NCBI RefSeq assembly: GCF_018863395.1
Contig: NZ_JAHKRR010000001.1
Coordinates: 806,001 to 870,000, forward strand
Source of the DNA: Sinomicrobium weinanense
GTDB taxonomy: Bacteria; Bacteroidota; Bacteroidia; Flavobacteriales; Flavobacteriaceae
Length of the DNA: 64,000 nucleotides
Reading direction: 5' to 3'
Within the stretch, counting starts at the first letter, position 1. Each line of letters starts with the position of its first letter. A program made the position numbers and the translations under genes. Shown one piece after another: positions 39,606 to 58,790 of the stretch. The notes under the pieces were generated by a model. That model worked only from the letters and a program-made list of their open reading frames with translations. It had not been told where the DNA came from and made no database searches.

Positions 39606-40067
39606 ATGCCTAATACCTATTCACAAATCTACATTCAAATCGTTTTTGCCGTAAGAGGCCGGCAAAACCTTATTTCAAAACATCACAGAGAAGAATTACA
39701 TCAATATATAACGGGTATTGTACAGAAAAGAGGACAAAAAATGTTGTCTATATTTGCGATGCCTGATCATATTCATATATTGGTAGGCCTTAAGCCAGGA
39801 ATTGCCATTTCAGATCTGGTAAGGGATATAAAGGCGGGATCATCCAAATTTATAAACGACAATCGGTGGATCAGGGGAAAATTCCATTGGCAGGAAGGTT
39901 TTGGGGCTTTTTCGTATTCTCTTAGCCAGATAGATCGGGTTATAAAATATATTCAAAACCAGGAAGAACATCATGGAAAGAGATCGTTTAAAGAAGAATA
40001 CCTGGATTTTTTGGAAAAATTTAAAATTGAATACGATACCAAATACCTGTTTGATTGGATAGAATAA
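39606..40067 (+). CDS. REP-associated tyrosine transposase (IS200/Y1 HUH family)
   Basis: A 153-residue single-domain HUH nuclease of the IS200-like Y1 class. The HUH motif is MPDHIHILV (His55, His57) and the probable catalytic Tyr115 lies in VIKYIQNQEEHH. It would cut and join single-stranded DNA at hairpins. No IS200 ends or accessory TnpB are present; instead the gene is flanked by inverted sets of short hairpin repeats, which marks it as a RAYT, a domesticated transposase that spreads REP elements rather than itself. Its DNA is AT-richer than its neighbours. Confidence 0.85.
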   Translation: MPNTYSQIYIQIVFAVRGRQNLISKHHREELHQYITGIVQKRGQKMLSIFAMPDHIHILVGLKPGIAISDLVRDIKAGSSKFINDNRWIRGKFHWQEGFGAFSYSLSQIDRVIKYIQNQEEHHGKRSFKEEYLDFLEKFKIEYDTKYLFDWIE

Positions 40068-40197
40068 ACAGGGCACCCCTAACGGGGTTGAATATGATTT
40101 TTACATACATTTTCTATAAACAGGGCACCCCTAACGGGGTTGAATACGATTTTCACATACATTTTTTATAAACAGAGCACCCCTAACGGGGTTGTAT
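40064..40197. repeat. Three 52-bp REP-type repeats downstream of the RAYT gene
   Basis: Units start at 40064, 40116 and 40168. Each opens ATAAACAG(G/A)GCACCCC-TAA-CGGGGTTG, a hairpin with an ACCCC/GGGGT stem, followed by an AT-rich spacer. The third unit is cut short before ligA. Nearly identical between units. Confidence 0.85.
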
Positions 40198-54498: not shown

Positions 54499-54606
54499 TT
54501 AAAGTTCAAGGTTTAAGGTTGCAGGTTGTAGATTGATCTAAACCTGCAACCTGCAACTTGTAACCTGCAACTTGTAACTTGTAACTTGTAACCTGTAATT
54601 GGCAAC
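54499..54606. repeat. Heptamer repeat blocks and hairpin after the Mo hydroxylase genes
   Basis: Forward units AAAGTTC, AAGGTTT, AAGGTTG, CAGGTTG, TAGATTG, then the exact hairpin GGTTGCAGGTT (54517-54527) with AACCTGCAACC (54541-54551). Nine tandem heptamers follow at 54544-54606: CTGCAAC, CTGCAAC, TTGTAAC, CTGCAAC, TTGTAAC x3, CTGTAAT, TGGCAAC. It lies between the Mo-hydroxylase operon and the AraC gene. Confidence 0.75.
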
Positions 54607-54647: not shown

Positions 54648-55694
54648 ATGACCTTTCAGAACCCGGTTTTGTTTTTTTTCTGTGCCCTGGGGGTTTTTAA
54701 CGGATTTCTTGTAAGCCTGTATTTTCTGTTTTTCTCCCGTCAAAAACGGGTTCAGAACTTTTTTTTCGGCTTGTTGATGCTTATGCTCAGTTTGCGTATA
54801 GGAAAATCCTTATATGCCCTTTTTGTTGAACCCCCGAACCTGTTATATATCCAGATCGGGCTTTCTGCATGTTTCCTGATCGGGGTTTCCCTGTATTTTT
54901 ACCTGAAATCCTCGGTAGAGAACACTAAAAAGGTCCCGGTTTCCTGGAAGGTTCACTATGCGGTTTTAGTGATCCTTATCCTCGGTATCGGCATAGTTAA
55001 GCCTCTTGCGACCGATGAAAAAGAGTTCTGGGACAATTATCTGGCATTGTTCATTTATATCGTCTGGGGAATTTATTTGCTTCTTTCGGGCTTTGTTCTC
55101 AGGGATATCATCAAAAAACTCTTTGACAGGAAAGCACAGTGTACCACCCAGGAACTGTGGCTTATAGGGGTATATACGGGGAACGGGCTGATCTTTACGG
55201 CTTATGTTATCGGCTACTTCCTGCTCTACCTGGTCGGGACATTGACCTTTTCTTTTGTATTTTATGCATTGCTGTTTTTTCTGTTGTCCAAGAAAAACAG
55301 GGATACGGTCTTCCGGGATATCCCGCAGAAATACGCCTCAAAAAAAATCGAAGACGCCGAGGCCTCGGCCCTGGTGCAGGCCCTGCACAAAACAATGCTG
55401 AGCGAAGAATTGTACAAGGATCCCAATATTAAATTGGGGCAGGTGGCACGGAAAATAAATATCCCGCCCCATAAACTCTCTCAATTATTGAATGACAACC
55501 TGGGAAAAAGTTTTGCCCTGTTTATCAATGAATACCGGATTGAAGAAGCCAAAAAGCTGATCAGGGAAAGTGAGCAGTTCACGCTGGAAGCCATTGGTTT
55601 TGAAGCCGGGTTTTCTTCGAGATCTACATTTTACACGGCATTTAAAAAATGTATCGGACAAACCCCTGCCGAGTTTAAAAAGCGGTTTTCCTGA
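54648..55694 (+). CDS. Membrane-anchored AraC-family regulator, copy 1
   Basis: A 348-residue protein with about six to seven membrane helices in residues 5-225 and a C-terminal AraC DNA-binding domain (about 255-348), ending SRSTFYTAFKKCIGQTPAEFKKRF. The layout (membrane sensor fused to AraC HTH) is shared with the gene at 57137-58183, a paralogue in the opposite direction. It probably senses a signal in the membrane; the target is unknown. Confidence 0.85.
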   Translation: MTFQNPVLFFFCALGVFNGFLVSLYFLFFSRQKRVQNFFFGLLMLMLSLRIGKSLYALFVEPPNLLYIQIGLSACFLIGVSLYFYLKSSVENTKKVPVSWKVHYAVLVILILGIGIVKPLATDEKEFWDNYLALFIYIVWGIYLLLSGFVLRDIIKKLFDRKAQCTTQELWLIGVYTGNGLIFTAYVIGYFLLYLVGTLTFSFVFYALLFFLLSKKNRDTVFRDIPQKYASKKIEDAEASALVQALHKTMLSEELYKDPNIKLGQVARKINIPPHKLSQLLNDNLGKSFALFINEYRIEEAKKLIRESEQFTLEAIGFEAGFSSRSTFYTAFKKCIGQTPAEFKKRFS

Positions 55695-55790
55695 TTTTAT
55701 CCGAATTTATAATTCCGGACCTCTTGTGATGACCGATCATCTCATTTTGTAATAATTTAAATATTTTTGTTTAAATCCCATGATTCACAT

Positions 55791-57097
55791 ATGTACAAAA
55801 TCTGTATTTTATTCCTGCTCCTTTTTACAGGAGGAACTATACAGGAGGAACTATAAAGGCCCAGGACATTATCGTTAAGGATATTGATATCATTCCGATG
55901 ACTTCGGACACTTTGATAAAAAGACAGAGTGTTTTGATCCGGGAAGGAAAGATCAAACAGGTCGATAAGTTCTCGAAAATCAAAAAAAACAAGCGGACAA
56001 GGGTCATTAACGGAAAGGATAAATTTTTAATGCCAGGCCTGGCCGATATGCATGTCCATATGCCCGAACTTGAAAAGATTGATACCCTTTTACTCATGAA
56101 TATTGCAGCCGGGGTAACACATATCAGGGTCATGAACAGCAAAGTACCTCAAAAGGAGATAAAAGAAAGAATAGCTTCAGGACAATTGGAAAGCCCAAAA
56201 ATTTATTACAGTCATATTATAAAACGAGATGAGACCTATTCAGGGCCGGAAGCAGACAGCCTGATGGTTACGATCAAAAATCAAGATATCAGCTTTATCA
56301 AACTATTTAGCCTATCTGACGAATCCACTTTTGACAATCTTGTAAGGTCTGCCCAAAAATATAATATTACAATTTGCGGGCATTATCCGACTTACCAGAA
56401 TGAGGGTAAGACCGTTATGGTTGAAATGGAAAAAGTGCTCAAAAACAAGTATAAAAGTATTGAACACCTGGCGGGATATAACGGATTTGAAACTAATGAA
56501 CAATTACAGGAAGCGGTTCTGTTAACCAAAAAATATCAGGTGTATAATTGCCCAACACTCGACTGGGACATCATGGCTTATGATTTACAATACCCCGAGC
56601 TTTATAAAAAGCGGCTGACCTACCGGATGCTTCCTTCAAAATATATACAAAAATGGGAAAGCAGGTATGCTGAAGCAATTGATAAAGCGGGCGGGAGTGA
56701 CAAAGTAACTGTTGCCAGGGATAAATACAAAGAACAATTTAAAAGGAAACAGTATATTCTTAAAAAGCTCTATGAAAATGATTGCATACTTCTAATCGGA
56801 GGAGATGCCGGGAACCATTTTCAGGCGGACGGGTTTAATGTATACGAAGAAATGATAAACTGGAGCCGGATAGGGGTAGACAATTATACCATACTCAAAT
56901 CGGCCACCACAAATCCTGCAATGTTTTTTAATAAAAACGGCCAATGGGGAACTGTTGAAACCGGTAAAGACGCAGACCTTGTTATCCTTGCTAAAAATCC
57001 GCTTGAAAATATAGAAAATATAGCTACGATTACAGTAACCATTACTAACGGCAAAGTTTTTCATCAAAAAAAGCTGCTCGAAAAAATTATACGATAG
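55791..57097 (+). pseudogene. Secreted amidohydrolase broken by a 14-bp tandem duplication
   Basis: An amidohydrolase-superfamily gene. The HxH metal site is visible as MPGLADMHVHMPE, a later His in ICGHYPTY and a third in IEHLAGYNG, and the C-terminal MFFNKNGQWGTVETGKDADLVIL is typical. The ATG at 55791, after a -7 TATTTTTG (55762-55769), begins a signal peptide (YKICILFLLLFTGG), but an exact duplication of ACAGGAGGAACTAT (55827-55840, 55841-55854) shifts the frame and gives a stop at 55854-55856. Removing one copy restores one frame of about 430 residues. As it stands, translation could only begin inside, for example at 55898, without export. Confidence 0.8.
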
Positions 57098-57136: not shown

Positions 57137-58183
57137 TTAAGTATATATCTTTTTATATTTTGCAGGCGTAGTACCTTTGAGGTTTTTAAAGGCCGAATAA
57201 AATGTAGATTTTGAAGAAAACCCGCATTCGTATCCTATCGCCTCTACGGTAAGGTGATGGTCGGTGGCCAGCATTTTTTCGGCTTCCTTCACCCTGTATT
57301 CATTGATAAATGCCGAAAAACCCCTGCCCAGGTTATCGTTCAGGCATTGCGATAAATGATGTGAAGGCATGTCCAGTTGGTCGGCGACATCAGCCAGTTT
57401 CAGGTTTGGATTTTTATAGGATTCCTTTTGTTCAAAAAGTATATTTAACCTGGAGAGGATTTCAGTAGCTTCACCCGTTTCGATTTTCTTATTGGCATAT
57501 TTCGTCTGTTCGGCAAAGAAAAAGGGAGTTGTTTTTCTTCTTTTAAAAAACCAGAGGAGCAGTATCAGGTAAAAGACAAAAGAAAAGGACAAAGCCCCTA
57601 CGATATACGAGGTGTATTCCGTTGTTCTGTAAGCGGCCCAGATAATGGCTACTCCGGCTACCAGGCTGATAAGCCAGATTTCTTCATCGGTCATTTTTTT
57701 TCCTTTTTTGACCAGGGTGGCAAAAGCACTTTTTATAACGATTCCCGAAAGGATCACATAAACAATCCACTGCGTATATAAAAAGTTGAAACCGAAAAAA
57801 TTCCAGAACCCCCTATGCTGTCGGTAAGGATAGAGGTATTCAATAATCACCATAACCAGCACTGTGGGTACAATATGATAGAGCCAATACCTGTTGCGGT
57901 AATTTTTACGGGTAGTGGTGTTTTTTACATACAGATACAAAAATGGCCCGATGAGTGCACAGGCAGATAATCCGATATGTATAAACAGCTCGGAAATGAA
58001 CGGATAAAAAAATAGAAAAACGGATTTTATGATCCTTATACTAAGTACCAGCATCAATGCCGAAAGAAAATAATTGGCCCTGTTTCTGTGCTTTACAAAA
58101 AAGGCAAAATAAATGCTAAGAAAGAGACCGTTAAAAGCACCTATGGCACTAAAGAAAAACAGGAGTTGATGTTCCGGATCCAT
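57137..58183 (-). CDS. Membrane-anchored AraC-family regulator, copy 2
   Basis: A 348-residue paralogue of the AraC gene at 54648: N-terminal membrane helices (FFFSAIGAFNGLFLSIYFAFF first), then the AraC domain ending SSKSTFYSAFKNLKGTTPAKYKKIY. The frame extends to 58228, but MDPEHQLLFFF at 58183 aligns with the start of copy 1 and is the same length. It faces the amidohydrolase gene convergently. Confidence 0.85.
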   Translation of the reverse strand: MDPEHQLLFFFSAIGAFNGLFLSIYFAFFVKHRNRANYFLSALMLVLSIRIIKSVFLFFYPFISELFIHIGLSACALIGPFLYLYVKNTTTRKNYRNRYWLYHIVPTVLVMVIIEYLYPYRQHRGFWNFFGFNFLYTQWIVYVILSGIVIKSAFATLVKKGKKMTDEEIWLISLVAGVAIIWAAYRTTEYTSYIVGALSFSFVFYLILLLWFFKRRKTTPFFFAEQTKYANKKIETGEATEILSRLNILFEQKESYKNPNLKLADVADQLDMPSHHLSQCLNDNLGRGFSAFINEYRVKEAEKMLATDHHLTVEAIGYECGFSSKSTFYSAFKNLKGTTPAKYKKIYT

Positions 58184-58228
58184 AAAATATTTTAAACACA
58201 AAGATTTTAGTACATGACAAAAATTCAA

Positions 58229-58790
58229 AAATCCATTGTTTTTTGACTTAAGACTTCAAGACATAAGATATAAGACATTAGATTTTAGATTTACAGTTAG
58301 TAGTGATGCGTTAATTTTTGGTCAATCCTTGTAAAGTACTAATACAACTGGCTTTAAGCATATTATTTGTTTTTTTTGATTTGATTTTGCCCCTGTGAGC
58401 TTTGTGTAAACCTTTGTGGTCTCCGTGGTTAAATATCAACCACAGAGGACGCCAAGTAGGCACAAAGAGCACAGAGTAGACTTAACGCATCAGTAATAAT
58501 TTACGATTATGGTTCATTTTATTTGAATGCCTTATGGAGCCTGTCCTAAGTCTTACGTCCTATAATCTTACGTCCAAGATCTCATATCTGAAATCTTCCT
58601 TCATGCCGATATTTTTTTTGTCAAGTACAGAACACAAAGATATTCATTGAGCAAAAACAGGAGGGATCCGGAAGGGCAATTTCCCGGTTTTTTTATTCGA
58701 ATTTATAAATCCGTACATCTCCATTATAACTTAATACCCTTTTTTTACCCGATTTAAGGATGTTTACCCAAAATTTAAACATCGGTCAAA
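58229..58790. other. 560-bp intergenic region with nested palindromes
   Basis: No gene seen. Three nested inverted structures lie inside it: opposed heptamer blocks (58245-58294 and 58543-58599), a 14-bp inverted pair with one mismatch (around TGATGCGTTAA 58304-58314 and TTAACGCATCA 58482-58492), and a central imperfect hairpin of CTTTGTGG/CCACAGAGG type (about 58399-58478). Confidence 0.7.
58245..58599. repeat. Nested inverted element with heptamer arms
   Basis: The left arm runs GACTTAA, GACTTCA, A, GACATAA, GATATAA, GACATTA, GATTTTA, GATTTAC. The right arm on the minus strand runs GATTTCA, GATATGA, GATCTTG, GACGTAA, GATTATAG, GACGTAA, GACTTAG, GACAGGC. Both follow a GAYNTNA pattern. A central stretch of CTCTGTG/CCTTTGTGG words is self-complementary. 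Confidence 0.7.

Follow-up and report, generated by a model that had tools for sequence, protein, structure and literature searches.

A 14-bp tandem duplication separates a signal peptide from its amidohydrolase in Sinomicrobium weinanense, most likely through a very recent and revertible inactivation

Does an exact tandem repeat lying between a signal peptide and its enzyme switch export on and off, or does it mark a gene that has only just been broken? The question is raised by an amidohydrolase gene in a 64,000-nucleotide stretch of the Sinomicrobium weinanense genome (contig NZ_JAHKRR010000001.1, positions 806,001 to 870,000 of the forward strand; hereafter the window, whose own numbering is used throughout). 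An earlier note on this DNA had proposed both answers. The 14-mer ACAGGAGGAACTAT is present as two head-to-tail exact copies (55827-55854) within the signal-peptide codons of the gene, in an exact period-14 tract of 30 bases (55826-55855; Table 1). Across the 5.36-Mb genome, this 14-mer is found at two places only, both of them here, and its backwards-pattern control at none, so the match is not a product of chance. Fourteen is not a multiple of three. From the ATG at 55791, frame 0 encodes MYKICILFLLLFTGGTIQEEL and ends after 21 residues at the TAA at 55854-55856, and the enzyme lies in a different frame, which is open over 437 codons (55784-57094). The uninterrupted N-terminal signal peptide (signal peptidase I type) in the frame of the enzyme that characterizes a secreted protein is thus absent here, as the two frames differ. 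When one unit is removed, a single ORF of 438 codons, counted from the TTG at 55767, is rejoined. Both the exact repeat and the frame shift between leader and enzyme described in the earlier note were therefore confirmed.

Table 1 Features of the amidohydrolase locus, in window coordinates
Feature	Position	Strand	Basis or remark
Upstream AraC-type regulator (HTH_18)	54648..55694	+	Domain match
TATTTTTG, fits TAnnTTTG, the Bacteroidota -7 promoter element	55762..55769	+	Weak; motif from general knowledge
Short ORF: signal-peptide start and hydrophobic stretch, TAA at 55854-55856	55791..55856	+	Sequence/translation
Copy 1 of the 14-bp unit	55827..55840	+	Sequence
Copy 2 of the 14-bp unit	55841..55854	+	Sequence
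Signal-peptide end (KAQ) plus mature amidohydrolase frame (413 codons in total), followed by the stop at 57095-57097	55856..57094	+	
Coding region of beta-strand 1 (residues 5-12), absent with a start at 55898	55868..55891	+	Structure model
First ATG in the enzyme frame	55898..55900	+	Aligns with internal Met/Ile of relatives
Span of invariant H66, H68, K149, H176, H204, D317	56051..56806	+	Alignment A3
Downstream AraC-type regulator	57137..58228	-	42% identical to upstream regulator

The enzyme part belongs to the amidohydrolases, as it scored 67.5 bits against Pfam Amidohydro_1 (PF01979; curated cut-off 25). A narrower assignment to the Xaa-Pro dipeptidases (NCBIfam NF051886) was not reached, with 71.9 bits against an equivalog cut-off of 500. 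The top solved relatives by sequence profile were 9KOV and 2QS8, and the top fold matches were 2QS8, 2P9B, and 9KOV, with 17-20% identity. Prolidase/carboxypeptidase-like amidohydrolases (2QS8, 2P9B, 9KOV, 3BE7, and 3MTW) are thus the leading profile and fold matches, but the enzyme part is only 16-20% identical to them over the fold alignment. Its AlphaFold model has a mean pLDDT of 91.1. Residues H66, H68, K149, H176, H204, and D317 (numbered from 55856), which we take to be the metal ligands and catalytic residues by reference to the amidohydrolase superfamily, are invariant in the 17/17 sequences of alignment A3 and intact here, so that the whole active-site set (HxH, Lys, His, His, Asp) is present. 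Within its own genome, the enzyme otherwise had only partial matches, in short stretches with identities no higher than 43%.

Among five other genomes of the genus, three gave matches (best E 2.3e-11, 25-38% identity). In the family (397 genomes, including its own), a match of 1e-30 or better was obtained in 26 genomes, and identity in the 25 besides its own did not exceed 33%. A search of 395 genomes of the order, again including its own, at a cut-off of 1e-40 added one genome, at 55%, and 5/299 genomes in the genus of that one matched at 1e-60. Searching genome contigs with an alignment as the query yielded 14 loci at 45-58% among the best 80 of 576 matches; the same type of search with the single protein as the query gave no relative. 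The 22 loci examined (L189-L193 and L194-L210) include three distant members at 33-34% (L208-L210), and four of L189-L193 seem, from matching leader and identity, to represent genes already present among L194-L210.

In all 22 of these loci, one open frame runs across the point of the repeat, and a frame-breaking repeat at this point was found in none. An ATG and a hydrophobic leader, the latter judged by eye, stand at the start of 21; the remaining locus, L199, has the leader without an in-frame ATG ahead of it. Perfect tandem repeats with units of 6-8 between -100 and +200 were present in 4/22 loci, two of which are the same gene, and the reading frame is left intact by each of these repeats. 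The nearest relative, Belliella calami (58%), reads MKIQLTVFFAIIFVAKGLSQ followed by DVLIRDISIIPM, with 20 residues ahead of the Asp that comes after the last Gln; the leader pieces of S. weinanense, when joined in the one-copy form, are equally long. Since the 22 loci are open here and the Belliella leader length fits one copy, the one-copy form is taken as the ancestral state, which upholds the proposal that loss of one copy would give the intact gene. Relative to these intact orthologues the frame is broken, as expected of a recent pseudogene. The 3' junction of the repeat was detected, among 60 genomes, in its own genome only, and in none of the viral contigs searched. We also observed an 8-residue insertion after GHYP, from about 56390, common to this enzyme and to 5/22 relatives (L196, L199, L201, L203, and L207). 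The idea that it is private to this gene was rejected, as these five include two Belliella loci and one Taibaiella locus.

The state of the mature frame bears on how long ago the break occurred. In a comparison with 13 mixed relatives at 45-58% (L199 left out), 55 of the 57 columns invariant in those relatives were kept here (0.965; others 0.887-1.0), and the distance to three outgroups was the second shortest of 14. Tests with five orthologues, all from one other genus, were less favorable: 106/127 invariant columns were kept (0.835), the lowest of six (orthologues 0.876-0.955), and the distance to L021 in the five-orthologue tree was 2.44, against 2.38, 2.45, 2.53, 2.17, and 2.20. The lower retention seen with the five orthologues was gone with the 13 mixed relatives. 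A long-decayed pseudogene is therefore not supported by the 55/57 columns and the outgroup distance, although the five-orthologue tests are less favorable, and the mature frame gives no clear sign of decay or of long freedom from constraint. Because the separated enzyme frame still resembles a constrained gene, with its catalytic residues intact, the suggestion that the site marks a very recent inactivation gains support.

The best reading of the locus, to which we give a probability of roughly 0.7, is that a very recent slippage duplication produced a null but revertible allele. A single replication slippage event would have doubled 14 bp in the signal-peptide codons of a gene for a secreted amidohydrolase with a prolidase-like fold; the resulting frame shift would leave the 21-residue stub and no enzyme, which is why the allele is predicted to be null. 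The same slippage would let it revert at a low rate, since the copies are exact and adjacent, and this capacity would be a by-product of its origin rather than an evolved switch. It is accepted that duplications of this kind can arise when slippage occurs between short direct repeats. Indeed, TACAGG (55826 and 55840) and TAAAGG (55854) share 5/6 letters at a spacing of 14 bp, which we take as a sign of slippage, although exact identity at the borders of a single unit extends over just 2 bases (TA). As an alternative cause, a stable hairpin was considered and discarded, the DNA fold z-score of the site being only -1.48.

A product might nevertheless still be made, either from the internal ATG at 55898 as a cytoplasmic form, from a non-standard start behind AGGAGG, or through a ribosomal -1 frameshift. 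The enzyme frame overlaps the entire leader, so that a single -1 shift before 55854 would connect the two parts; AGGAGG motifs are present at 55829 and 55843, and the enzyme frame has a constrained look. However, the ATG at 55898 is aligned to an internal Met in 14/22 loci and an internal Ile in 8/22, and it is therefore not the native start. It corresponds to residue 15 of the model, behind strand 1 (residues 5-12), a part modeled confidently (block-mean pLDDT 89-97), and a start there would remove this strand from the modeled fold. A protein begun at this ATG would thus probably not work, and the cytoplasmic form that the earlier note had suggested is poorly supported. The enzyme frame, although open from 55784, contains no ATG, GTG, or TTG upstream of 55898, and the slippery heptamer XXXYYYZ expected in the overlap for programmed -1 frameshifting was found at none of the 20 in-register heptamers from 55790 to 55847. 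In addition, Bacteroidia ribosomes are reported to fail at Shine-Dalgarno recognition (PMC9976891), which argues against a restart behind AGGAGG. Neither a Shine-Dalgarno-led restart nor -1 frameshifting thus has motif support, and a residual product of any of these kinds seems unlikely.

It was also considered whether the second copy is an artefact of assembly or sequencing, the true gene having one copy and being intact. The genome is a draft of 30 contigs with two N runs in the part surveyed below, and an enzyme frame without clear decay is what a working gene would show. On the other hand, the site is deep inside a 1.3-Mb contig, and small exact tandem copies are atypical as a short-read error. 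The survey covered all of contigs C1 and C12 together with 120 kb of C25, or 2,387,610 of 5,357,131 bases (45%); perfect tandem arrays with units of 10 to 300 were counted, the two N runs being dropped, and 48 distinct places were found. An array was considered to split a gene when the local ORF, with one unit omitted, grew by a factor of more than 1.5 and exceeded 120 codons. This was the case for 3/48 arrays, two of which are intergenic (C1:979857 and C12:409970), leaving the amidohydrolase site as the sole gene-splitting array within a gene. For the 13 arrays in ORFs of at least 280 codons, we saw no instance in which omission of one unit lengthened the ORF. As no second gene-splitting tandem duplication was found within a gene in these 2.39 Mb, an artefact of this type is not frequent in that part of the assembly, and we regard it as an improbable explanation.

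The duplication is an isolated event in the surveyed 2.39 Mb, and the idea that gene-splitting duplications are a general habit of this genome found no support in this 45%. Other repeats were observed along the way. Arrays with 7-bp units (AACCTGC, GGTTGAC, AAACCTG, TCGGTGG, and others) occur at 54541-54598 and at many places in C1 and C12, many of them outside long ORFs and some with ten or more copies. A 52-bp unit is present in 2.5 tandem copies at 40064-40194 (94% matches), and the intergenic region at 58200-58630, which looks like a dispersed repeat element, has many further occurrences in this genome and also in those of congeners, with identity of up to 94% across roughly 350 bases.

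These results also bear on a selected, phase-variable export switch in which one copy would give a secreted enzyme and two copies none. The rejoining of the 438-codon ORF upon removal of a single unit speaks for it, as does the report that tandem duplications in coding regions can reversibly toggle an enzyme (PMC4169377). In simple-repeat phase variation, tracts mutate 100-10,000 times above the base rate, at a rate set by repeat number (PMC11868660), and the two copies here (exact tract of 30 bases) therefore do not constitute the hypermutable multi-copy tract of a contingency locus. The lack of any frame-breaking repeat at this point in the 22 loci and of a second such gene in the 45% surveyed likewise counts against a switch, and a hydrolase of this kind would be an unusual phase-variable product. 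The on/off export switch raised by the earlier note is thus left without positive support and is very unlikely. More doubtful still is the scenario in which cells of the strain, through gain and loss of one unit, alternate between secreting a prolidase-like enzyme and making none, with the TACAGG/TAAAGG near-repeat letting the one-copy form re-duplicate at the same place.

The amidohydrolase gene is flanked by two AraC-type regulators in opposite directions that are 42% identical to each other. In one congener (G001), a single AraC gene was seen in 5.2 kb around a DJ-1/PfpI-type gene, and a close amidohydrolase was not found in that genome. Judging from this one congener, the lineage may have acquired the enzyme, whose gene is patchy in its distribution, jointly with the second regulator, and both may be dispensable. 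The Bacteroidota -7 promoter element, TAnnTTTG, has a characteristic spacing; the sole TTG in the 31 bases upstream of the weak match TATTTTTG is at a spacing of 12, which is too close by the generally expected distance. A sigma-70 promoter scan found 5 candidates against 5.2 in shuffles, and a terminator scan found 0 against 1.1.

Taken together, the findings most likely reflect an ordinary accident that broke the gene very recently and could undo itself, and not an evolved switch. An annotation of this gene should indicate the frameshift and place the start at 55791 instead of 55898. Because the allele is apparently recent, its copies exact, and the remainder of the gene intact, it could serve, as an allele caught soon after its origin, to measure the rates at which tandem duplications of 14 bp arise and are lost again in this bacterial group.

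Our search of the literature found no case of Flavobacterium phase variation by tandem-repeat frameshift, and the other papers found offered analogies only. The duplication resembles simple-sequence-repeat phase variation (PMC11868660) in that a change of copy number could bring the gene into frame or take it out; it differs in having neither a hypermutable multi-copy tract nor conservation in relatives, and in that the gene product is, as far as is known, not a surface antigen. Silenced resistance genes (SARM; PMC6819657) are also frameshift null alleles of otherwise intact genes for which reversion is possible, but these are mostly point deletions in poly(A) tracts of S. aureus, and the terms "duplication" and "tandem" do not appear in the main text of that paper. 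A further likeness is with the beta-lactamase gene penA, in which de novo tandem duplications were described that, like this one, are short, exact, and within the coding region, some being bordered by direct repeats of 3-8 bases, longer than the 2 bases (TA) found here (PMC4169377). Two of the penA duplications were lost again, at frequencies of 9.3e-7 and 3.6e-5 (PMC4169377), and it is by analogy with this measurable loss that the 14-bp allele would be able to revert. The penA duplications add amino acids and change the substrate range under selection (PMC4169377), whereas the one in S. weinanense shifts the frame and is predicted to remove the product.
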